DNA of 64,000 bases, from contig DUZX01000015.1 of assembly GCA_013349325.1 (NCBI GenBank), positions 1 to 64,000 of the forward strand, read 5' to 3'. How positions within the stretch are numbered: position 1 is the stretch's first letter; each line of letters opens with the position of its first letter. The notes beneath the pieces are model-generated. The model was not told the origin of the DNA. It saw only the letters and a program-made list of their open reading frames with translations, and did no database searches. Origin of the DNA: Desulfuromonadales bacterium. GTDB lineage: Bacteria > Desulfobacterota > Desulfuromonadia > Geobacterales > Pseudopelobacteraceae. Both the position numbers and the translations under genes were made by a program. Shown here piece after piece: positions 1,334 to 54,458 of the stretch.

Positions 1334-1350
1334 GGCATTCCTCCTTTTTG

Positions 1351-1397
1351 GTTCGACTCCGCTCACCAACCTTTGGTACCTGAGCGGAGTCGAAGGG
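1351..1397. repeat. Palindromic repeat, copy A (TTCGACTCCGCTCA family)
   Basis: Perfect 14-base inverted arms TTCGACTCCGCTCA (1352-1365) and TGAGCGGAGTCGAA (1381-1394) flank a 15-base centre. This copy is intergenic, between two prophage tail genes. Related copies are at 3094, 14907, 46662 and 53963. Confidence 0.9.
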
Positions 1398-3085: not shown

Positions 3086-3093
3086 GAAAACAA

Positions 3094-3140
3094 TTCGACT
3101 CCGCTCATGTACCAGGACGGTAACTAAAGCGGAGTCGAAG
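3094..3140. repeat. Palindromic repeat, copy B
   Basis: TTCGACTCCGCTCA (3094-3107) is matched by GCGGAGTCGAA (3129-3139). The copy is intergenic between connector and capsid genes, next to the candidate late promoter. Confidence 0.85.
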
Positions 3141-3206
3141 TTTCGGGTTTTTACTCCGTTTACAGCATGATGTCAACTCACAAACGCTTGCACACCAACA
3201 TTACGG

Positions 3207-5490: not shown

Positions 5491-5573
5491 TAACCCCCCT
5501 CAATCCCCCCTTAACAGGGGGGAGGTTAGCCCCTCCCCTGTTAAGGGGAGACGGGGGAGGGGGCACATGCCTC
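5491..5573. repeat. C/G-tract palindromic repeat
   Basis: This intergenic segment contains a near-perfect hairpin CCCCCCTTAACAGGGGGG, a second arm pair CCCCTCCCCTGTTAAGGGG, and trailing G tracts. The half-sites CTTAACAG and CTGTTAAG repeat in inverted order. It looks like a dispersed intergenic element rather than a simple terminator because it has no T run. It sits between portal and the next head gene. Confidence 0.7.
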
Positions 5574-42169: not shown

Positions 42170-44422
42170 TTACATCATATCAACCGGATCGATATCGAGC
42201 GTTATCCGCACCGCTGAGCTGACCGGCTTTTGCTGGCGCCAGACCTGAATCAGCCGGTGGAGATCGTTTCGTGTGGGGGCCTTGAGCAGAATCTGGCGGC
42301 GAAAACGACCTCGCAGCCGGTAGATCGGAGCGGGCGCGGGACCAAGTATTTCGACGCGCAGCTTCTGCTCTCGTTTTGCGCTCATCAGAAACTGCGCCGT
42401 CTGTTCGGCCCGTTCCGATACTCCTGACTCAGCCGTACCGGAGAAACTGAAAGCCGCCAGAAACGCGAACGGGGGATAGCCCGCTTCCTGGCGGAACTCC
42501 AGCTCCTGCCGGTAAAATCCGGCGGCATCGTGTTCGGCAGCCGTGCGGATGGCATGCTGTTCCGGATCGGCAGCCTGAATGATTACGCGACCCGGCAGTT
42601 CACCACGGCCGGCCCGGCCAATAACCTGCGACAAAAGTTGAAAGGTCCGTTCAGCCGCCCGAAAGTCCGGCAGACCGAGACTGGCCTCGGCGTTGATGAC
42701 CCCGACCAGGGTCACTTCAGGAAAATCGTGCCCTTTGGCGATCATCTGCGTGCCGACCAGAATATCGACCGAGCCGTCGCTCATACGCTCCAGTAACCGC
42801 TGGTGACTGCCGCGACCGGAGGTGGTGTCACTGTCCATGCGCATGATGCGGGCCTCGGGGAACAGCTCTTTCAGGTCATGCTCGATCCGTTCCGTACCGG
42901 CTCCCATCTCAGAGAGCGTGGTACCGCCGCAGGAGGGACAGGTTCCGGGCGCCGGGACAGTGTAGTCGCAGTAATGACAGATACTCTGGCGGCGCTGACG
43001 ATGATAGGTAAGTGTGACCGAGCAATTCGGACAGGCCAGCGTTTGACCGCACTCCGCGCAGAGCAGAAAACTGGCATACCCGCGACGATTCAGGAAAACA
43101 ATCGCCTGTTGACCGCTTGCCATGGTGTCTGCCAACGCTGCGACCAGCTTCGGAGACAGTGATTCTTTGACACCTTTCATGGCGACCCGCTCCACATGCG
43201 GCATGGGGCGCCCCTCAACGCGCTCCGGCAGCTGCAGTATCGTCAATCGCCGCCGACTGGCGGCCTGCATACTGACGACCAGCGGGGTGGCCGATCCGAG
43301 TACGACAGCCGCCTGCTCCAGCTGTCCCCGCACCAGCGCCAGATCGCGGGCATTGTAGCGCAGGCCGTCCGACTGCTTGAAGGAGGCTTCCTGCTCTTCA
43401 TCCACGATGATGATACCGATATTTTCAAGCGGCGCAAAGACCGCCGAGCGGGCACCGATAACGATGCGGGCCTGTCCGCGCCGGATACGACGCCACTCAT
43501 CATAGCGCTCACCGCCTGAAAGCCCGCTGTGCAAAATGGCGATGCCGCCTCCGAAGCGGGCCTGGAAACGCCCGGTCAGCTGCGGTGTCAGTGCAATCTC
43601 CGGTACCAGCACCAAGGCATTTTTACCCGCGTGCAGAACGTGGGAGATGCTCTGAAGATAGACCTCGGTCTTGCCGCTTCCGGTGACGCCATACAGCAGA
43701 AACGGTGCAAACTGCTGCCGGTCAAGACCGGCGTTGATGGCATCCAGAGCATCTTTCTGACCACTGTGCAGCCGGCGCGGTTCGTCACGCGTAATCGTGC
43801 TGTTTTTAAACGGATCCCGATACACTTCGCGCTCGATGACGGTAACCAGACTCAACTCGTTCAAGCGGGTGAGCTGTGCGGAACAGCTGCCGAAGCGCTT
43901 ACGCAGATCGGCTGCCGAAATCTCGCCCGCTTCACGCACAACCGCCAGAATCTCCAGCGCCTTGGTACTCGGCTGACGGGGTGGTTCCGACCCCGCATCC
44001 GGCTGGTAAAACTTTTCGATTCTAACCGATCGGCCGCCATGGAGCTGTTCAGTATCACCCGGAAGACCGGGACGGATCTGGACGTTGATGCCGGCCGGGA
44101 GTGCCGTCCTGAGGACTTCTCCCAGAGGATGCAGATAATAGGAGGCGGTCCAACGGAAAAATTCCAGTTCACGCTCCGTCCAGAGCGGCTGGCTGTCCAA
44201 CACCTCGATGATTTCCTTCAGCTTGTCGGATGCTGTATCGGTGACGTCACGCAGGATATAGCCGGTCAGACGGCGATTCCCGAAAGGCACCAGGGCACGG
44301 TACCCTTTCAGAGGATGAGTCAGCAGTCGTGCAGGCACCAGATAGTGAAACAGTTTGTCCAGCTGCAGCGGAATGGCAACTTCAATGATGCGGGGAGGTG
44401 CGTACGTTGTTGAAGATGTCAC
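42170..44422 (-). CDS. priA: Primosomal protein N' (replication restart helicase)
   Basis: This is a 750-residue helicase with the start placed at GTG 44422 (an ATG 24 codons earlier lacks a ribosome site). It contains Walker A GVTGSGKTEVYL, an unusual DEEQEASFKQ in place of the common DEEH box, eight zinc-binding cysteines (CAECGQTLACPNC and CHYCDYTV...CPSC), and helicase motifs IAKGHDFPEVTLVG and QVIGRAGRGE. It reloads the replisome at stalled forks. Confidence 0.92.
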   Translation of the reverse strand: MTSSTTYAPPRIIEVAIPLQLDKLFHYLVPARLLTHPLKGYRALVPFGNRRLTGYILRDVTDTASDKLKEIIEVLDSQPLWTERELEFFRWTASYYLHPLGEVLRTALPAGINVQIRPGLPGDTEQLHGGRSVRIEKFYQPDAGSEPPRQPSTKALEILAVVREAGEISAADLRKRFGSCSAQLTRLNELSLVTVIEREVYRDPFKNSTITRDEPRRLHSGQKDALDAINAGLDRQQFAPFLLYGVTGSGKTEVYLQSISHVLHAGKNALVLVPEIALTPQLTGRFQARFGGGIAILHSGLSGGERYDEWRRIRRGQARIVIGARSAVFAPLENIGIIIVDEEQEASFKQSDGLRYNARDLALVRGQLEQAAVVLGSATPLVVSMQAASRRRLTILQLPERVEGRPMPHVERVAMKGVKESLSPKLVAALADTMASGQQAIVFLNRRGYASFLLCAECGQTLACPNCSVTLTYHRQRRQSICHYCDYTVPAPGTCPSCGGTTLSEMGAGTERIEHDLKELFPEARIMRMDSDTTSGRGSHQRLLERMSDGSVDILVGTQMIAKGHDFPEVTLVGVINAEASLGLPDFRAAERTFQLLSQVIGRAGRGELPGRVIIQAADPEQHAIRTAAEHDAAGFYRQELEFRQEAGYPPFAFLAAFSFSGTAESGVSERAEQTAQFLMSAKREQKLRVEILGPAPAPIYRLRGRFRRQILLKAPTRNDLHRLIQVWRQQKPVSSAVRITLDIDPVDMM

Positions 44423-44522
44423 GTGGGTATCCGTAATTTTTATCGGCAGGATAGCATAATCAAAAAAATCGTGTATAATAATGAACCTTTTCATGAGTAC
44501 GAATCGAGCCAGGAAGTTAGTG

Positions 44523-45779
44523 ATGAATCTCTATCAACTGCTTAACATAAAAACTCAAAATGACCCGGACAGCTTACTCCGTTTGCTGACCATTGTGGCG
44601 CTTATTTCGATTATCACCGTTGTCACTCTGGGGAGCTACGGTTTTTATCAGGTTTTTTCAGGGTTTGTCATCAAAAGCGCTGAAGTTGACTCTGTGCAAC
44701 TCTGTCGGGTGCTGATCAACGAACAGAAAGATCTGATGTTTGTGACCCCGCCAGGGAAAAAAGTTGAAATTGGCCTGCATGGCACCGAGATACTGCCGTT
44801 TGACAACCGGCTCAGAGCTTTTTTGGCCCCGTTCAACATCATCAAGGTAAAGATTTATAACCCCGCCAAACAGATCGTCTATAGCACCGATCCGACATTG
44901 ATCGGCAAGGTGGATAGCAACAATCGCCGACTGGCGCATGCACTGTCCGGTGCTGTCGATGCAAAGCTGGTAACCAAGGACAAGGCCAGCGATCTGGCTG
45001 ATGAGACGCTGCGGGATGTCGATGTTGTTGAAACGTATGTACCGATCGTGAGTAGCGACAGCAGGATCGTGGGCAGTTTTGAAATCTATATGAACGTTAC
45101 CCAGTATCGTGCCCAGATCAGCCACGGAGTGCGGCTGGCAACCTCGCTGCTCGGACTTGTGATGGTTGTAGTGTTCGGCTTTTCGTACGTTCTGATTCGC
45201 GGCGGCACCGATCGGCTGAAAGCTGCTCAGTCGCAGCTGAATATTATAGCAATCACCGACTCGCTCACCGGCATTCCCAACCGTGGTCAGCTGATGTTAC
45301 GCGGCGAAGAAGAGTTCGAGCGGATACAAAGGGCTCATAACGGGCAGAGGATGCCGTTAGGCTGCATCATGCTTGATATTGATCATTTCAAACAGGTCAA
45401 CGACACCAAAGGACATCTGGCAGGGGATCAGATACTGCACGGAGTTGCACAGCGGTTGAAAAGCTGTCTGCGCCCGTACGACCTGATTGGACGCTATGGC
45501 GGTGAAGAATTTGTCATACTGCTGCCCGACACGGCATTGGAGCACAGCCTGCTTGTCGCAAACCGGCTTCTGGAGAGAATGAGGCGGGAACCGTTCGAGG
45601 CGGTTGGCCTTCAGCTTTCAATAACGGCCAGCCTGGGAGTAACCATATCCAGCGAGACCGACAGCAGTCTGGCCGATATAATCAAGCGGGCTGACGAAGC
45701 GATGTATAAAGCCAAGAAGTCCGGGCGTGATCGCGTGGCCTGGATGTACGATCCCTTTGATGCCGAGATACACTCGTAA
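44523..45779 (+). CDS. Membrane diguanylate cyclase (GGDEF)
   Basis: This is a 418-residue protein. Membrane segments at about 20-42 and 205-225 bracket a periplasmic sensor region; the C-terminal GGDEF domain has the active motif RYGGEEFVILLPD and IMLDIDHFKQVND. It makes c-di-GMP. The ATG at 44523 follows AGGAAG; an upstream ATG in frame lacks a site. A TATAAT box at 44474-44479 is a possible -10, but I see no convincing -35. Confidence 0.9.
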   Translation: MNLYQLLNIKTQNDPDSLLRLLTIVALISIITVVTLGSYGFYQVFSGFVIKSAEVDSVQLCRVLINEQKDLMFVTPPGKKVEIGLHGTEILPFDNRLRAFLAPFNIIKVKIYNPAKQIVYSTDPTLIGKVDSNNRRLAHALSGAVDAKLVTKDKASDLADETLRDVDVVETYVPIVSSDSRIVGSFEIYMNVTQYRAQISHGVRLATSLLGLVMVVVFGFSYVLIRGGTDRLKAAQSQLNIIAITDSLTGIPNRGQLMLRGEEEFERIQRAHNGQRMPLGCIMLDIDHFKQVNDTKGHLAGDQILHGVAQRLKSCLRPYDLIGRYGGEEFVILLPDTALEHSLLVANRLLERMRREPFEAVGLQLSITASLGVTISSETDSSLADIIKRADEAMYKAKKSGRDRVAWMYDPFDAEIHS

Positions 45780-45807
45780 ATACGGATATCGGCCGGAAGC
45801 GGCTCAG

Positions 45808-46017
45808 CTACCAGTATTTTTGGGGTGGATCAGTCTTGCCGGTGCAGACAATCGCGGAATCAACTATCGCAAACATGTCGCCGATTTCGTTGATCCAGTT
45901 ATCACCTTCTTCGAGCGGAATCGGCACTTCACGCTTACCCAGAAAAACCTCTTCATCGCCGATATAGGCAAACCACTCCAGACTTCCATTCATCCAGATA
46001 ATATTTTTCAGTTCCAT
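45808..46017 (-). CDS. Small conserved-looking protein at end of polyamine operon
   Basis: This is a 69-residue acidic protein (MELKNIIWMNGSLEWFAYIG) with AGGGGA before the ATG and only an eight-base gap after nspC. It ends in KTDPPQKYW. Its position at the end of the speA operon suggests a link to polyamine metabolism, but no family is recognised. Confidence 0.6.
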   Translation of the reverse strand: MELKNIIWMNGSLEWFAYIGDEEVFLGKREVPIPLEEGDNWINEIGDMFAIVDSAIVCTGKTDPPQKYW

Positions 46018-46025
46018 ACATTCCC

Positions 46026-47204
46026 CTACGAGAGCCGCCCTTTAAAATCCTGATACCCGAAACTGCGCGTAACCTTCAACTCGCCGGTTTCCGGCTCCCA
46101 GGTACAGATATGCGGATGCTGAATGCCGTTGAAGGTCGTGGTTTTGACCATGGTGTAATGTGACATATCCTCAAACGCCAGACGCGTACCCGTTTGCAAC
46201 GGTTTTTCGAACGACCAGTCACCGATGACATCTCCCGCCAGACAGGATGCCCCCGCCAGCCGATAGTTGAACGGTTTCTCTCCCGGCGCGAAGCCCCGGT
46301 AGATCTCAGGGCGGTACGGCATCTCAAGAATATCGGGCATATGGCAGGTGGCCGAGACATCCAGAATGGCGATATCCATACCGTTGTGGACGACATCCAG
46401 TACTTCTCCCACCAGAATGCCGGTGCCGATGGCAACCGCCTCACCCGGCTCCAGGTAGACCTCGACATCGTATTTTCTCTTGAAGTATTTTACCAGATCA
46501 ATCAGGCCGTCAATATCATACCCCGCGCGGGTTATGTGGTGACCGCCACCAAAGTTAAGCCACTTCATCTGTGATAAAAATTGGCCGAATTTTTCCTCAA
46601 AAACCCTGGCAGTCCGCTCCAGAGGTTCAAAGAGCTGTTCGCAGAGCGTGTGAAAATGCAGCCCTTCGACTCCGCTCAGGAACCGCTCTCCGTTCCCAGA
46701 GCGGAGTCGAAGGGAAAATTCCCCGTACGGTATGCCGAGGCGGGAGTTGGCTGCACAGGGGTCGTAGATCTCCGTCTGCCCCTCGGAGTGCTCCGGGTTC
46801 ACGCGAAGCCCGACAGAGACTCTGCCGGCCTCTTTTTCCCACTGCGGACGGAAGCGCTCCAGCTGATCGAAGGAATTGAACACCAGATGATTGGAGAGCT
46901 GGAGCAGTTCAGCGACATCACTCTCTTTGAAGGCGGCGGCAAAACTGTGCACCTCGCGATTGAACTCCTCGCGCCCCAGCCGCGCCTCCCAGGGTGAACT
47001 GGCGCAAACACCCTGCAGCGTTTCCCGGATCAGCGGAAAGACGCTCCACATCGAAAATGCCTTCATCGCCAACAGGATTTTAGCACCGCTGCGCCGTTGC
47101 ACGTCATCCAGAATGGCCAGGTTGTGGCGCAAGCGACAGAGATCAACCACGTAAGCCGGCGAAGGGGATTGCTGCAGGATTTTATCGATGTCGATGCCGG
47201 TCAA
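46026..47204 (-). CDS. nspC: Carboxynorspermidine/carboxyspermidine decarboxylase
   Basis: This is a 392-residue PLP enzyme. The PLP-binding Lys is in LLAMKAFSMWSVF, and GLHFHTLCEQ, GGGHHITRAGYD and the C-terminal dimer motif are typical of NspC. It makes spermidine (or norspermidine) by decarboxylation. No ATG fits; TTG at 47204 with GGAG ten bases upstream is the best start, four bases after the dehydrogenase stop. A palindromic repeat (46662-46714) adds a segment (SLRLRSGNGERFLSGVE) between IPYGEF and GLHFHT in an otherwise normal protein. Confidence 0.9.
   Translation of the reverse strand: MTGIDIDKILQQSPSPAYVVDLCRLRHNLAILDDVQRRSGAKILLAMKAFSMWSVFPLIRETLQGVCASSPWEARLGREEFNREVHSFAAAFKESDVAELLQLSNHLVFNSFDQLERFRPQWEKEAGRVSVGLRVNPEHSEGQTEIYDPCAANSRLGIPYGEFSLRLRSGNGERFLSGVEGLHFHTLCEQLFEPLERTARVFEEKFGQFLSQMKWLNFGGGHHITRAGYDIDGLIDLVKYFKRKYDVEVYLEPGEAVAIGTGILVGEVLDVVHNGMDIAILDVSATCHMPDILEMPYRPEIYRGFAPGEKPFNYRLAGASCLAGDVIGDWSFEKPLQTGTRLAFEDMSHYTMVKTTTFNGIQHPHICTWEPETGELKVTRSFGYQDFKGRLS
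46662..46714. repeat. Palindromic repeat, copy D (inside nspC)
   Basis: CCCTTCGACTCCGCTC (46662-46677) is perfectly inverted as GAGCGGAGTCGAAGGG (46699-46714), with a 21-base centre. It lies in frame within nspC and encodes about 17 extra residues in a loop. Confidence 0.9.
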
Positions 47205-47208
47205 CGGA

Positions 47209-48405
47209 CTACAGCTCCGGCCAGTCACCACCGTCCACAACGACGGTCGGCAGCCCCATTGGACCGAGTACTTCCAGGAACTGTTCAGGGTCGAACTGCT
47301 CCATATTCCAGACACCGGGCGCATGCCATTTTTTTGTCAGCATCATGATGGCACCGACTACAGCCGGAACGCCGGTGGTGTAACTGATGGCCTGCGACTG
47401 AACCTCTTTGTAGCAGGCTTCATGATCGCAGATGTTGTAGATGTAGACTTGCCTGCGCTGACCATCTTTGATGCCACGAGCGATGACGCCGATGCAGGTT
47501 TTGCCCCTGGTCAGCGGACCGAGACTACCCGGATCCGGCAGCAGTGCTTTTAAAAACTGGATCGGGACGATCTTCTGCCCGTTGTATTCGACTTCATCGA
47601 TACGGGTCATGCCGACGTTCTGCAGCACTTCCAGATGCTTGAGGTAGTTTTCCGAGAAGGTCATCCAGAACTGGGCTTTTTTGATGGTCGGGATATGTTT
47701 GACGATCGATTCCATCTCCTCATGATAGAGGCGGTAGATGTTCATCGGCCCGATCCCTTCCGGAAAATCGAAGGAGTGTTTGGTGGAGAGCGGCGGCGAC
47801 TCGACAAACTGGCCGTTTTCCCAATGCCGGCAGATGGCGGTCACTTCGCGGATGTTGATCTCCGGGTTGAAGTTGGTTGCAAAGGGCTGGCCGTGACTAC
47901 CGGCGTTGGCGTCGATAATGTCGAGCTCTTCGACCACATCCAGATATTTTTTGGCGGCCAGGGCGGTATAGACATTGGTAACACCCGGATCGAAACCGGA
48001 ACCGAGCAGCGCCATGAGACCTTTTTCCTTAAAGCGTTCCTGGTAGGCCCACTGCCAGGAATACTCGAAGTGGGCGGTATCGAGCGGCTCGTAGTTGGCG
48101 GTGTCGAGATAATCGACACCGGTTTCGAGGCAGGCGTCCATGATATGCAGATCCTGATAGGGGAGCGCCACGTTGATGACCAGCAGCGGCTGCAGCTTCC
48201 TGATCAGCGCTACCAGTTCCGGTACGTTGTCGGCATCGACCTGGGCGGTAGTAATACTATTGCCGAGTTGGGCCGCAATGGCGTCACATTTCGATCTGGT
48301 GCGCGAGGCCAGTGTGATTTCGCTGAAGATGTCGCGCCGCTGGGCGCATTTGTGGGTGACGACCTGACCGACGCCGCCGGCGCCGATGATGAGGACTTTG
48401 CTCAT
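47209..48405 (-). CDS. Carboxyspermidine/carboxynorspermidine dehydrogenase
   Basis: This is a 398-residue saccharopine dehydrogenase-type protein: NAD(P) site KVLIIGAGGVGQVVTHK, then ALPYQDLHIMDACLETGVDYLDTA. It reductively joins putrescine (or diaminopropane) to aspartate semialdehyde, giving the substrate of NspC. The ATG at 48405 follows GGGGGA; gaps of four bases to speA and nspC mark a single operon. Confidence 0.88.
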   Translation of the reverse strand: MSKVLIIGAGGVGQVVTHKCAQRRDIFSEITLASRTRSKCDAIAAQLGNSITTAQVDADNVPELVALIRKLQPLLVINVALPYQDLHIMDACLETGVDYLDTANYEPLDTAHFEYSWQWAYQERFKEKGLMALLGSGFDPGVTNVYTALAAKKYLDVVEELDIIDANAGSHGQPFATNFNPEINIREVTAICRHWENGQFVESPPLSTKHSFDFPEGIGPMNIYRLYHEEMESIVKHIPTIKKAQFWMTFSENYLKHLEVLQNVGMTRIDEVEYNGQKIVPIQFLKALLPDPGSLGPLTRGKTCIGVIARGIKDGQRRQVYIYNICDHEACYKEVQSQAISYTTGVPAVVGAIMMLTKKWHAPGVWNMEQFDPEQFLEVLGPMGLPTVVVDGGDWPEL

Positions 48406-48409
48406 AGTA

Positions 48410-50317
48410 TTATTCCCCCAGATAGGTATAGCCAAGTAATGTTCTGTCCAGCAGTTCGATAAAGTGGCTGCTCTCTTCGATGGAAATATTCTTCAGCATG
48501 ACGCTTTTTTCGAGATTGTCCCTGACTCGCTTCAAAATCTCCGGTCCTTTGTACTGGACGTATTTGAGCGTTTCCCAGGTGGCGTCTCCGTTTATAACCG
48601 TGTCAATCATGTAGCCTGATTTTTTGTTAAATGTTATATGCACGGCATTGGTATCGCCGAACAGGTTGTGCAGGTCACCCAGAATTTCCTGATAGGCTCC
48701 GATCAGAAAAAAACCGATATAATAATCTTCGTCCTTACGAATCTTATGCAGCGGCAGATACTTTGAACGTCCGTTTTCACCGACGAAGCTGGTGATTTCG
48801 CCGTCCGAATCGCAGGTAATATCGGCAATCGAGGCCATGACGTCCGGCTTGTGATTGAGCCGCTGCAGCGGGACAATCGGAAAGAGCTGGTCAATGGCCC
48901 AGGAATCGGGGATCGACTGGAACAGCGAAAAATTGGCGAAATAGGTCTGGCGCATCGAGAGCTGGAAGTTCTGCAACTCCTCCGGAATCGGCTTGATCTT
49001 CTCGACGATGCTGTTGATCTTCTTGATTATCTTCGAATAGAGCCATTCGGCAATCGCACGGTCATTGAGCGTCAGATACCCGAGATTGAACAGACTGACC
49101 GCCTCGTTGATCAGCTGCAACGTGTCGTGGTAATCCTCACGCAGCGAGTAGCGATCGATGCTCTTGTAGATATCGGTCAATTTTTTTACCGTGGGGGCCA
49201 CTTTCTCGGAGGTCGCCAGAATATCCTCAAAATCCGGCATCAGATGCTGCGTGTTGGTGTTGAGGACGTTGGTGACCAGAACCGAGTAGTGCGCAACGGT
49301 GGCACGTCCCGACTCCGAGATGATATTGGGGCAGGCCACACCGGCTTCATCACAGATGTTCTTGATCTGGTAGATGACGTCATTGGCGTACTCTTCCAGC
49401 GTATAATTGACGCTGGAAAAATAGCTCGATTTTGAGCCGTCGTAATCGACGCCCAAACCACCGCCAATATCGAGATACTCGATACCGACCCCCAGTTTTT
49501 TCATCTCGGTATAGACACGGGCGACTTCGATCAGGGCGGTCTTGATCTTATCGATCTTGGTGATCTGGCTGCCGATATGCGAATGCAGCAACTTTACCGC
49601 ATCCAGCATGTTCTGCTCTTCCAGCATGCGAATGGCGGCGATGATCTCGGACATACGCAGACCGAACTTGGCATCCTCGCCACCCGAGGTGGCCCATTTT
49701 CCGGTCCCTTTTGAGGAGAGCTTGACCCGAACCCCCAGTTTGGGCGTAATGCCGGTCTTCTTGGAAAGAACGATGATCTTTTCCAGTTCAAACAGTTTCT
49801 CGACTACCAGTGTAATGTCGAAACCGATTTTTGTGGCATACAGCACCGTCTCGATGTATTCGGCATCCTTGTAGCCATTGCAGATGATCGGCAGATTATT
49901 ACCGCTGGAAATGGAAATTCCGGCTACCAATTCCGGCTTTGAGCCGACTTCCAGACCGATATTATAGCGTTTCCCGTAGCTGGCGATCGCCTCGACTACC
50001 TGGCGCTGCTGATTGACCTTGATCGGATAGAAGGTCTGATATTTGGCCGGGTAATCATTTTCCTGAATCGCGCTTTTGAAGACGCGGTTGATGGAAGCGA
50101 TACGCCCCTGCAGAACATCCATAAAGCGCAACAGAATCGGTGGCTTGATCTTGCGCTTGATCAGATCATCAACCAGATCGCGCAGATCGATGGACTGCTT
50201 GGAGTTTGACGAGGGGTGTACGCAGATGTTCCCCTTTTTGTTAATCGAAAACAGGTCGGCGCCCCAGTTATCAATGTTGTAAATCTTGGCCGAGTCACTG
50301 ACGGTCCATTTTTCCAT
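48410..50317 (-). CDS. speA: Biosynthetic arginine decarboxylase
   Basis: This is a 635-residue PLP enzyme that turns arginine into agmatine. The PLP Lys is in FYPIKVNQQRQVVEAI, and HSHIGSQITKI, DIGGGLGVDYDG and ISESGRATVAHYSVL are family motifs. It opens the polyamine operon. The step from agmatine to putrescine is not encoded here. A strong promoter lies at 50366-50394. Confidence 0.94.
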   Translation of the reverse strand: MEKWTVSDSAKIYNIDNWGADLFSINKKGNICVHPSSNSKQSIDLRDLVDDLIKRKIKPPILLRFMDVLQGRIASINRVFKSAIQENDYPAKYQTFYPIKVNQQRQVVEAIASYGKRYNIGLEVGSKPELVAGISISSGNNLPIICNGYKDAEYIETVLYATKIGFDITLVVEKLFELEKIIVLSKKTGITPKLGVRVKLSSKGTGKWATSGGEDAKFGLRMSEIIAAIRMLEEQNMLDAVKLLHSHIGSQITKIDKIKTALIEVARVYTEMKKLGVGIEYLDIGGGLGVDYDGSKSSYFSSVNYTLEEYANDVIYQIKNICDEAGVACPNIISESGRATVAHYSVLVTNVLNTNTQHLMPDFEDILATSEKVAPTVKKLTDIYKSIDRYSLREDYHDTLQLINEAVSLFNLGYLTLNDRAIAEWLYSKIIKKINSIVEKIKPIPEELQNFQLSMRQTYFANFSLFQSIPDSWAIDQLFPIVPLQRLNHKPDVMASIADITCDSDGEITSFVGENGRSKYLPLHKIRKDEDYYIGFFLIGAYQEILGDLHNLFGDTNAVHITFNKKSGYMIDTVINGDATWETLKYVQYKGPEILKRVRDNLEKSVMLKNISIEESSHFIELLDRTLLGYTYLGE

Positions 50318-50949: not shown

Positions 50950-53427
50950 TTGATCGAAATAGAGACTGAAAACGATACCGAACAGAGTTCGGAAGAACTT
51001 AAAATACCGGATCTGTTGCCACTGCTGCCAATCCGCGATGTGGTTGTATACCCTTTCATGATCATCCCGCTCTTTGTCGGGCGTGAAATGTCGGTCAAGG
51101 CTGTTGACAGTGCCCTGGCCGGCGACCGGATGATCCTTCTGGCAACGCAGCATGATGTCGGTGATGAAGATCCGCCAGCTGATAAAATCTATGAAGTCGG
51201 CACCGTCGCCATGATCATGCGAATGTTGAAACTGCCTGACGGTCGCATAAAAATTCTGGTGCAGGGGCTGGCCAAAGCCCGCATCACTGAATTTGTGTCC
51301 GACAAACCGTTTTATACCGTTCGCGTGGAACGCCAGCACGATCTCCAATTAAAGGACATCTCGCTGGAGGTTGAAGCGCTGGTGCGCACCGTCCGCGAGC
51401 AGCTGAACAAGGTGATTGAGCTGGGCAAACAGATATCGCCCGAAGTCATCGTCATACTTGAAAACATTCAGGATCCCGGCAGCATGGCCGATCTGATCGC
51501 CACAAATCTGGGACTTAAAGTTGCCGAAGCGCAGCAGTTGCTTGAAATTAACGATCCGGTCGCACGGCTGACCAAGGTCAACGAGTTCCTGAATCGTGAG
51601 GTTGAGCTCCTGAGCGTGCAGGCCAAGATCCAGAACGCCGCCCGCGAAGAGATGGGCAAGAACCACAAGGAATATTATCTGCGCGAGCAGATGAAGGCGA
51701 TTCAGAGTGAGCTGGGTGATAACGAGGGCAAAGAGGAGCTGGCTGATATCCGCAAGGCTATCGAAACGGCCAAAATGCCGGCGGCGGTTCAGAAAGAGGC
51801 TCTCAAACAACTGGGACGCCTGGACAATATGCACCCCGATGCCGCCGAAGCCGGTATCATCCGCACCTATCTGGACTGGATGGTGGAACTCCCCTGGAGC
51901 ACATCGACCCGTGACAACCTGGACATCATTCGCGCCAAGAAGATCCTCGACGACGACCACTTCTACCTGGACAAGATCAAGGAACGCATCCTGGAGTTTC
52001 TGGCGGTGCGCAAGTTGAAAAAGAAAATGAAAGGGCCGATCCTCTGCTTCGTCGGGCCGCCGGGCGTCGGAAAAACGTCGCTGGGCAAATCGATCGCCCG
52101 GGCTATGAATCGTAAATTCGTGCGCATATCGCTGGGGGGCGTGCGCGATGAAGCCGAAATTCGCGGACACCGCCGGACCTACATCGGGGCCCTGCCGGGG
52201 CGCATTCTGCAGGGGATCAAGCAGGCCGGCGCCAATAATCCGGTCTTTATGCTGGACGAGCTCGACAAACTGGGCTACGACTACAAAGGTGACCCCTCTT
52301 CGGCTCTTCTTGAGGTGCTTGACCCGGAACAGAATCACTCCTTTTCCGATCATTACATCAACCAGCCTTTCGACCTCTCCAACGTTATGTTCGTGGCGAC
52401 CGCCAACCAGATGGACCCGATCCCTTCAGCACTGCGTGACCGCATGGAGGTCATCAATCTGTCGGGCTACACCGAGGAGGAAAAGCTACAGATAGCCAAG
52501 CGCTATCTGGTGCCGCGCCAGATCAAGGAGAACGGCCTTAAAGCCAAGCTGATCAGCTTTGATGATGCCTCGATCAACGAGATTATTGCCAAGTACACGC
52601 GGGAAGCGGGGCTGCGCAGCCTGGAGCGCGAAATCGGAAAAGTGTGCCGTAAAGTTGCCCGCAAGGTTGCCGAGGGCAACAAAAATGCTGTCAAGATCAC
52701 CGCCAAGGAACTGCACACCTATCTGGGGATTCCCAAGTACATCCGCGAAGAGGATCTGGACAAGAATGAGATCGGTGTCGTCAATGGACTGGCCTGGACA
52801 CCGGTCGGGGGCGAAATCCTGCATATCGAAGCGACCCTGATGCAGGGCAAAGCCGGTATGACACTGACCGGCCAGCTGGGTGACGTCATGAAGGAATCGG
52901 TGCAGGCGGCCCATTCTTACATCCGTGCCCACACTGACGCGCTCGGCCTGAAACCGGAACTGTTTCAAAAGCACGAAATCCATGTGCATGTTCCGGCTGG
53001 CGCCATCCCCAAAGACGGTCCCTCGGCCGGCGTAGCAATGACGGTGGCACTGGTCTCGATTCTCTGCAAGATTCCGGTCAGAAGTGACGTCGCCATGACC
53101 GGTGAAATCACCCTGCGCGGCAAAGTACTACCGATCGGCGGCCTCAAGGAAAAAATTCTGGCTGCCGTCCGTTCGCGCATGCGGCTGGTGATTATTCCGG
53201 AGCAGAACAAAAAAGATCTTGAGGATATTCCGCCTGAAATTCTTAAGAAGGTCAAGATCGCGGCAGTATCGGAAGTCGGCGAAGCTCTCAGGCTGGCGCT
53301 GGAAAACTTCTCTCCGACCGGTTCAACGGCACTCACAGAAAAAAATGTCAAATCCAAAACGAAAGCATCCACCGTTACAGCTCCGGCACGCCGCCGCAAG
53401 GTACTATCACCAGAGGTCCGGGGTTGA
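50950..53427 (+). CDS. lon: ATP-dependent Lon protease
   Basis: This is an 825-residue protein with the start at TTG 50950, seven bases after AAGGAG. The N-terminal substrate domain (LPLLPIRDVVVYPFMIIPLF) is followed by the ATPase (Walker A GPPGVGKTSLGKS around 370) and the protease domain with catalytic Ser in PKDGPSAGVAM (around 692) and the Lys further on. The C-terminus is a basic tail. It degrades misfolded and regulatory proteins. Confidence 0.95.
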   Translation: MIEIETENDTEQSSEELKIPDLLPLLPIRDVVVYPFMIIPLFVGREMSVKAVDSALAGDRMILLATQHDVGDEDPPADKIYEVGTVAMIMRMLKLPDGRIKILVQGLAKARITEFVSDKPFYTVRVERQHDLQLKDISLEVEALVRTVREQLNKVIELGKQISPEVIVILENIQDPGSMADLIATNLGLKVAEAQQLLEINDPVARLTKVNEFLNREVELLSVQAKIQNAAREEMGKNHKEYYLREQMKAIQSELGDNEGKEELADIRKAIETAKMPAAVQKEALKQLGRLDNMHPDAAEAGIIRTYLDWMVELPWSTSTRDNLDIIRAKKILDDDHFYLDKIKERILEFLAVRKLKKKMKGPILCFVGPPGVGKTSLGKSIARAMNRKFVRISLGGVRDEAEIRGHRRTYIGALPGRILQGIKQAGANNPVFMLDELDKLGYDYKGDPSSALLEVLDPEQNHSFSDHYINQPFDLSNVMFVATANQMDPIPSALRDRMEVINLSGYTEEEKLQIAKRYLVPRQIKENGLKAKLISFDDASINEIIAKYTREAGLRSLEREIGKVCRKVARKVAEGNKNAVKITAKELHTYLGIPKYIREEDLDKNEIGVVNGLAWTPVGGEILHIEATLMQGKAGMTLTGQLGDVMKESVQAAHSYIRAHTDALGLKPELFQKHEIHVHVPAGAIPKDGPSAGVAMTVALVSILCKIPVRSDVAMTGEITLRGKVLPIGGLKEKILAAVRSRMRLVIIPEQNKKDLEDIPPEILKKVKIAAVSEVGEALRLALENFSPTGSTALTEKNVKSKTKASTVTAPARRRKVLSPEVRG

Positions 53428-54458
53428 AAACGGGGGATTCCGGTGAATTCGGCCTGATTTCCCGCATAGCAGCGCAGGTACACTCTCATCAGGGCGTCAT
53501 CACCGGTATCGGTGATGACGCAGCCGTCACCGTTCTCACTCCCGACATGCAGCTTTTAACCTCCACCGACATGCTGATGGAGGATATCCACTTCCGCCGC
53601 CGCTGGCACGACCCGTACCGCCTGGGACGCAAGTCACTGGCGGTCAGCATCTCCGATCTGGCCGCCATGGGCGCTATCCCGCGCTGGGCGCTGCTATCGC
53701 TGGCCATTCCCGCCGATCTTCCACCAAATTTTATCACTGAATGTACGCACGGCTTTCTGGCTATGGCAGAGGAATATTCCGTAACCCTGATCGGCGGAGA
53801 CACCTGCGCCTCACGATCAGGTCTGGTGATCTCTGTGACCATCATGGGTGAGCAGCGTCCTGAATTGATCCTCCGCCGCAGCGGCGCCCGGCCCGGCGAT
53901 GATATCTGGGTCAGCGGCACACTGGGTGATGCCGCGCTGGGACTGAAACTGCTTGACTTCGGTTTCGACTCCGCTCAACCACGGGACTCCGCTGGGCATA
54001 CTGGGCGGTCCCTGAGCGGAGCTGAAGGGGCGGTCTCCCGCCTGCTCGATCCGACACCGCGCGTAACGGCCGGCCTGGCACTGGCCGCTTCCGGCCTGGT
54101 TACCTCCATGATCGATATCAGTGACGGCATCCTGGCCGACTTTGGACATATCGCCGAACTGTCCGGTGTTGGCGGTTGCCTGCATCTGGACGACCTGCCG
54201 GTGTCCGATTGCTTCCGCTCGATCGCGTCAGCTTTCAACGATTTCCCCCATGATCTGCCACTTTCAGGTGGCGAGGACTACGAACTCTGCTTCACCGCCT
54301 CACCGGGAGATCGTGAAAAAATCATCGGACTCATGAAAAAATGTGGCAATCAGGCAACAGCTGTTGGTATAGTGTCGCGCCAACCGGAAGTCACCGTTGT
54401 GCGCGCCGACGGCAGCAGCTACACCCCGCTTTCAAAAGGTTTTAACCATCTTATCTAA
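53424..54458 (+). CDS. thiL: Thiamine-monophosphate kinase
   Basis: This is a 344-residue kinase of the AIRS/PurM fold, which makes thiamine diphosphate from the monophosphate. Motifs include GIGDDAAV near the N-terminus, DMLMEDIHF and SLSDLAAMG-like SISDLAAMGA. The start is TTG overlapping the lon stop (TTGA), with AGAGGT upstream. A palindromic repeat at 53963-54028 adds about 22 residues (FDSAQPRDSAGHTGRSLSGA) after LGLKLLDFG. Confidence 0.88.
   Translation: MKTGDSGEFGLISRIAAQVHSHQGVITGIGDDAAVTVLTPDMQLLTSTDMLMEDIHFRRRWHDPYRLGRKSLAVSISDLAAMGAIPRWALLSLAIPADLPPNFITECTHGFLAMAEEYSVTLIGGDTCASRSGLVISVTIMGEQRPELILRRSGARPGDDIWVSGTLGDAALGLKLLDFGFDSAQPRDSAGHTGRSLSGAEGAVSRLLDPTPRVTAGLALAASGLVTSMIDISDGILADFGHIAELSGVGGCLHLDDLPVSDCFRSIASAFNDFPHDLPLSGGEDYELCFTASPGDREKIIGLMKKCGNQATAVGIVSRQPEVTVVRADGSSYTPLSKGFNHLI
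53963..54028. repeat. Palindromic repeat, copy E (inside thiL)
   Basis: TTTCGACTCCGCTCA (53963-53977) pairs imperfectly with TGAGCGGAGCTGAAGG (54013-54028). The centre holds a second inverted pair (GGGACTCCGC / GCGGTCCC region). It is in frame within thiL. Confidence 0.85.

Follow-up and report, generated by a model that had tools for sequence, protein, structure and literature searches.

A coding palindrome in nspC of a Desulfuromonadales bacterium, with one native arm and one added arm resembling a dispersed repeat

The stretch of DNA analyzed here, referred to as the window, comprises 64,000 nucleotides from a Desulfuromonadales bacterium. On its minus strand it carries nspC, the gene for carboxynorspermidine decarboxylase (46026..47204; 392 aa), whose TTG start lies immediately after an nspB-like gene; use of this start is backed by relatives, in that alignments mostly begin at query residue 14, which corresponds to that TTG. 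The product is a member of the NspC family at the equivalog level, matching the TIGR01047 profile with 478.3 bits (cut-off, 409.05) and covering model positions 2-379 of 380. Scoring above the curated cut-off over nearly the full model length, the protein flanking the palindrome described below is intact, as a preliminary description of this DNA had held. Upstream of nspC and on the same strand lie an arginine decarboxylase gene (48410-50317) and a carboxynorspermidine synthase-like gene (47209-48435), the latter scoring 403.6 bits where its model has a cut-off of 800.

Exact inverted repeats of 16 nt are located inside nspC at 46662-46677 and 46699-46714, and both the coordinates and the complementarity of these arms, first pointed out in the preliminary description, were verified. 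As RNA, the segment gives a fold of -42.7 kcal/mol (z -7.62) that none of 200 shuffles equalled in stability. Codons were also redrawn at NspC usage frequencies under an unchanged amino acid sequence; none of 100,000 such draws yielded 16 Watson-Crick pairs, and the best, with 15 pairs, came up once; thus, the pairing of the arms is well beyond chance even given the amino acids. Read on the minus strand, the palindrome consists of a 24-nt arm, TCCCTTCGACTCCGCTCTGGGAAC (46692..46715), coding for SLRLRSGN (residues 164-171); a 12-nt spacer, GGAGAGCGGTTC (46680..46691), coding for GERF; and a second arm, CTGAGCGGAGTCGAAGGG (46662..46679), coding for LSGVEG.

NspC was compared across 58 genomes, including that of the window, and 80 named contigs. 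This gave 110 loci and, after removal of 24 duplicates, 86 distinct sequences; N-terminal stretches ahead of upstream stops were cut off in L050, L097, and L111 (L and G denote individual loci and genomes). Counted from SRLG to LCEQ, relatives without the insert have 29 residues, typically SRLGIPRREFEGRSLSGVEGLHFHTLCEQ, whereas the window NspC has 37, a gain of eight residues (SLRLRSGN) or 24 nt. Extra residues at this site are found in 10 of the 86 distinct genes and are absent from the other 76. The preliminary description had counted about 17 repeat-derived residues, but the length comparison rules out the insertion of a complete segment of that size, LSGVE being native and GERF being the native spacer, which corresponds to EGRS or EERS in genes without the insert and has its GAG CGG codons in common with L041. 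The LSGVEG residues align without gaps to PDB 9eaf, 36gy, and 3n29, which have no counterpart of the eight residues directly before them, and nine of the 76 genes lacking the insert have the native-arm DNA, CTGAGCGGAGTCGAA, exactly. In genome G038 the native stretch of nspC is the sole match, at ≤1 mismatch, to the dispersed unit considered below. The LSGVEG arm is ancestral NspC coding sequence, and it follows from this ancestry and the length comparison that the palindrome pairs one added arm with one native arm, the 12 nt between them being native spacer.

The two halves of the segment accordingly part company in the alignment of relatives, which the preliminary description had proposed as a check and a possible refutation of its repeat-derived segment. 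The left half, of LRLRSG type, is present in seven of the 86 genes, with three more having other extra residues, and is not general to the family; the right half is native, since LxGVEG is common to NspC proteins with and without the insert and is often encoded by different DNA. Structure mapping, also proposed there, likewise assigned LSGVEG to the native enzyme rather than to a repeat insert. What stands of that description is that the arm of a dispersed repeat lies in frame in nspC at a loop where relatives tolerate extra residues.

The structure model of the window NspC is rough (mean pLDDT 78.5, with 56.5-70.8 for four other models); its best fold matches are NspC structures, with query TM values of 0.79-0.82 for 9eaf and 3n29. 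Helices are predicted at residues 160-168 and 172-175 and a strand at 179-183, in the GLHFH region, and on this model the eight added residues would extend the connection ahead of the GLHFH strand. The insert site is flanked by residues that do not vary among 44 aligned NspC rows, and, judging by the general architecture of this fold, the insert is presumably on the side of the enzyme facing away from the active site. The eight residues are probably neutral for NspC.

The sequence of the arms recurs as a dispersed unit of ~20 nt, CCCTTCGACTCCGCTCAGGG. At ≤3 mismatches the window contains 11 arm matches against 0.70 expected, and a 19-base form has 26 matches in the 3.58-Mb genome, the reversed control having one. 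Twenty-two sites read in this genome comprise nine solo units, eight inverted pairs spanning ~45-122 nt, two direct-repeat arrays, and three weak single matches. Inverted pairs in the window, to which no strand applies, include copy A (1349..1397) and copy B (3091..3142), both probably intergenic because the longest open frames across them are only 77 and 45 aa, respectively, and copy C (53961..54029), which lies in a thiL-like gene and codes for FDSAQ...SLSGAEG. By eye, five of the six frames of the unit are open (PFDSAQ, PSTPLR, LRLRSG, PERSRR, and LSGVEG), a property that suits insertion in coding sequence. At ≤1 mismatch the distribution of the unit is patchy, with a match in 36 of 58 relatives and, in a phylum-wide sample, in 42 of 297 genomes, five of which have 20 or more. 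The window also has an unrelated-looking palindrome at 5494-5561, with 32-nt arms that are 78% complementary, lie 4 nt apart, and contain runs of C and G.

Besides nspC, the unit is in frame within genes that, from their sequences, look thiL-, rnr-, rarA-, and nuoL-like; open frames spanning unit copies in the window's own genome include apparent conserved enzymes. Among the fetched loci that were aligned (thiL, 30 rows; rnr, 29 of 30 after removal of one row with a stop, L269 being truncated; rarA, 30; nuoL, 24), a loose pattern recognizes the unit in 6 of 30 thiL-like, 3 of 29 rnr-like, and 5 of 24 nuoL-like genus rows; for rarA the figure is 2 of 30, the unit being clear in the window genome's gene alone. 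Neither arm is present in 10 of the 30 thiL-like rows, and a native half-site is therefore not needed in general. The thiL-like loop (window 53358-54455; L203-L232) is hypervariable in the genus, with 25 to 57 residues over one stretch. Single loops of the rnr-, rarA-, and nuoL-like genes (L245-L274, L275-L304, and L305-L328, respectively) are hypervariable too and gather in-frame insertions, some belonging to this family and others looking like different palindromic repeats, such as PPPPGEGVNLLPPAGGGREGG.

The bases added to nspC have a counterpart closer to hand, in the native codons of the gene itself. Reverse-complemented, the 24 bases added in L043 and L050 are identical to the native stretch of L068, a gene without the insert; over the seven carriers of this insert type the agreement is 21-24 of 24 bases (22/24 in the window), and the window's added arm is reverse-complementary to the native codons of L041 at 21 of 24 bases. 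A new segment reverse-complementary to adjacent sequence is what template switching leaves behind. Four of the 24 matching bases in L043 and L050 fall beyond the 20-nt unit, while over the 20-nt core a dispersed copy of the unit could give a similar match. L068 was the best of 76 rows, and its match is for this reason support, not proof, that the added arm was copied backwards from native codons of nspC. In the native arm itself, Ser in LSGVEG is associated with GGA GTC (Fisher p 6e-6, rows uncorrected), but the coupling loses significance (median p 0.45) once pairs are chosen to be phylogenetically independent, and homogenization of the native arm is consequently not claimed. The Ser codon at this position is AGC in all 27 of the NspC rows that have Ser there, as against 23% of Ser codons elsewhere in the genes; the rows are related, and the figure serves as a lead only.

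Alternatively, nspC may have received the unit from another place in the genome, through a mobile-element enzyme or through homologous recombination for which the native half-site acted as guide. The dispersal of the unit and its in-frame presence in other genes favor such an outside source, as does a GCCTGCC extension before the native arm in L024, L044, and L072 that occurs in dispersed copies too. Extended in this way, the sequence (GGCCTGCC followed by CTGAGCG) is matched at ≤2 mismatches in 16 of 58 relatives, and G002 and G031, the genomes of L024 and L044, have it exactly within nspC. Most of the 76 native genes are at least 3 bases off the GCCTGCC extension, and it suggests repeat-family input in these three alleles; the nearest native gene is, however, only 2 bases off, which weakens the point. 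A further point for an outside source is the repeat load, which in the five clean carriers exceeds that of 29 genomes of the genus lacking the insert (p 0.0013), a difference that shrinks to p 0.055 once two decayed carriers are added, with relatedness uncorrected in both cases and G022, whose nspC is only a fragment, excluded. The added bases beyond the unit in L043 and L050, which match native nspC, count against this source. So does the absence of the unit, at ≤3 mismatches, from 34 fetched RAYT loci (98,849 bases), a subset of the RAYT matches; two more stretches around RAYT genes of the window's own genome have no unit at ≤4 mismatches. RAYT was rejected as mobilizer of the unit as far as the loci examined are concerned, and an outside source for the nspC arm as a whole seems unlikely.

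The seven carriers of the insert type are the window gene (L009), L039, L043, and L048, each with eight extra residues; L024 and L044, with 13; and L050, with 32. In the L050 allele (L050:3532-3652), diverged repeats of a CTGAAYRGGRAYRAA-like stretch lie between the arms, an arrangement that looks like multiplication of the spacer. Other alleles with extra residues are those of L045 and L046 (nine residues), which look decayed, and L072 (eight), with a different left part. Within the genus, 7 of the 36 genomes with nspC covered have extra residues, the remaining 29 having been judged from extracted sequence or match length. By eye, direct repeats around the 24-nt gain are no longer than 2-3 nt, the feature on which a MITE-type target-site duplication would be recognized.

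Forcing the seven carriers into one clade was 139.7 log units worse for nspC DNA minus the segment (p-AU 0.0057), and 208.3 log units worse (p-AU 5.6e-5) for the NspC, NspB, and SpeA proteins in 70 rows, 16 of the 86 having been left out because they had too little of the three genes; in these tests the carrier group was defined by the trait, and a first tree had been viewed before the constraint was applied. In the three-gene tree the row nearest to the window is L041 (SH-aLRT 91), which has no insert, a perfect native arm, and the spacer codons GAG CGG as in the window; in the nspC DNA tree it is L040, also without the insert, at a node with no support value. Outside the segment, raw identity to the window is 0.787 for carrier L039, 0.783 for carrier L043, and 0.783 for L040. 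Plain descent from one gain does not fit these data, leaving recurrence and allele exchange.

One old insertion in an ancestral nspC could account for the carriers if the allele was later exchanged by short recombination tracts or lost many times, the latter being what plain descent requires once a single carrier clade is rejected. The boundaries and the added DNA are alike in the seven carriers, and particular residues accompany the insert: IPY before EF is found in six of the seven carriers (8 of all 10 rows with extra residues) and Phe175 in five of seven, a pattern consistent with common descent or with the exchange of a single allele. Over 10 codons, carriers are also more alike beside the insert than they are to noncarriers, both on the left (0.83 vs 0.67) and on the right (0.92 vs 0.80). 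On the other hand, neither IPY nor Phe175 is kept in any of the 76 genes without the insert, and the left flank of the window is no closer to other carriers (0.73-0.77) than is the rest of the gene (0.76-0.79); a recent patch transfer into the window lineage is unsupported on the latter ground. We regard a single old insertion as rather doubtful, if still deserving of attention.

Selection of the hairpin for a role in the nspC mRNA, whether in decay, translation, or the binding of a protein, would give a different reason for its presence in the carriers. The great stability of the fold is in keeping with this, and at four of the eight positions where the seven carriers depart from Watson-Crick pairing, a G-U pair is formed. 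The other four break a pair, the left arm is decayed in L045 and L046, and 76 of 86 genes manage without the hairpin. No arm-to-arm covariation was seen in nspC; in the thiL-like row L204 one complementary arm change was noted by eye. A known RNA family was also considered as the identity of the hairpin, and an Rfam search of 44000-50000 returned none at the gathering threshold. Maintenance of the hairpin for such a role is very improbable.

On balance, the nspC palindrome is best regarded, with slight confidence over doubt, as a coding repeat of REP/RPE-like kind that was completed on a native half-site in a tolerant loop. The starting state would have been an nspC gene whose LSGVEG codons already matched the unit, and an inverted 24-nt copy would then have been added upstream of LSGVEG, in frame, leaving a 12-nt spacer. 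The chance of a random insertion falling within 40 nt of one of 22 look-alikes is ~5e-4, and this figure, together with added bases that copy native codons, points to an event guided by the native half-site. The likeliest route is template switching during replication, in which the native stretch was copied backwards; a close alternative is that the native half-site guided recombination between nspC and a dispersed copy; we infer this route, as we do the mobilizer, the neutrality of the added residues, and the number of events. More tentatively, and with the odds somewhat against it, the process that makes inverted pairs out of solo units may act on any unit-like sequence, native codons included, and may have completed the nspC palindrome several times independently. 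If so, a conserved enzyme would have been lengthened repeatedly at one place, with its own codons seeding each event.

Completion on a native half-site would let the birth of a coding palindrome be viewed before and after the event: one genus offers relatives that have the native arm only, relatives in which the hairpin is complete, and dispersed copies of the unit. The old question of how small bacterial palindromes spread, through insertion or through templated copying, becomes testable on real alleles. There is also a caution: protein segments that look repeat-like may in part be native.

In-frame palindromic repeats in bacterial genes are already known, as are repeats within Geobacter genes. 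Intragenic REPs of the GTAG and CGTC families are small palindromes that occur, singly or paired, in frame within conserved genes, and in recB of two Xanthomonas species different REPs lie at approximately one site (PMC3733652). The present unit resembles REPs in being a dispersed short palindrome found solo or in inverted pairs, but neither CCCTTCGACTCCGCTCAGGG nor its complement contains the GTAG or CGTC tetranucleotide. GTAG REPs are associated with RAYT genes, whereas CGTC REPs have no such association (PMC3733652); the unit, unlike GTAG REPs, is away from the RAYT genes examined. RPEs are palindromic repeats of ~150 bp translated in frame in unrelated metabolic genes (PMC10969869), and the unit is similarly in frame in unrelated conserved genes (nspC and thiL-, rnr-, rarA-, and nuoL-like). 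RPEs as described there are complete elements, however, whereas the unit is ~20 nt and the nspC palindrome is a 24-nt arm added to a native one. Multicopy repeat families have been described between and within genes of Geobacter metallireducens (PMC2700814); in the main-text passages compared, their consensus sequences (the heptamer GGGACCG, the octamer GTTGCTYN, and others) differ from the unit. A literature search that missed most subscription journals and supplements found the unit's sequence nowhere in print and its peptides only in papers on other subjects.

Template switching can create a stem in one step by making a reverse-complement copy of neighboring sequence (PMC8794818), and in coding genes of yeast some such events occurred more than once (PMC8604942). 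In the parts of these two papers compared, the cases are not connected with any bacterial dispersed repeat that has an identical sequence, whereas the nspC arm equals one. In Nematomorpha mitochondria, both arms of perfect inverted repeats encode protein in functional genes; unlike the nspC palindrome, these mitochondrial arms reach 284 bp and both lie in conserved regions (PMC6649704). What sets nspC apart from the intragenic REPs, and is unusual for intragenic repeats, is that one arm of its palindrome is ancestral coding sequence of the host gene.
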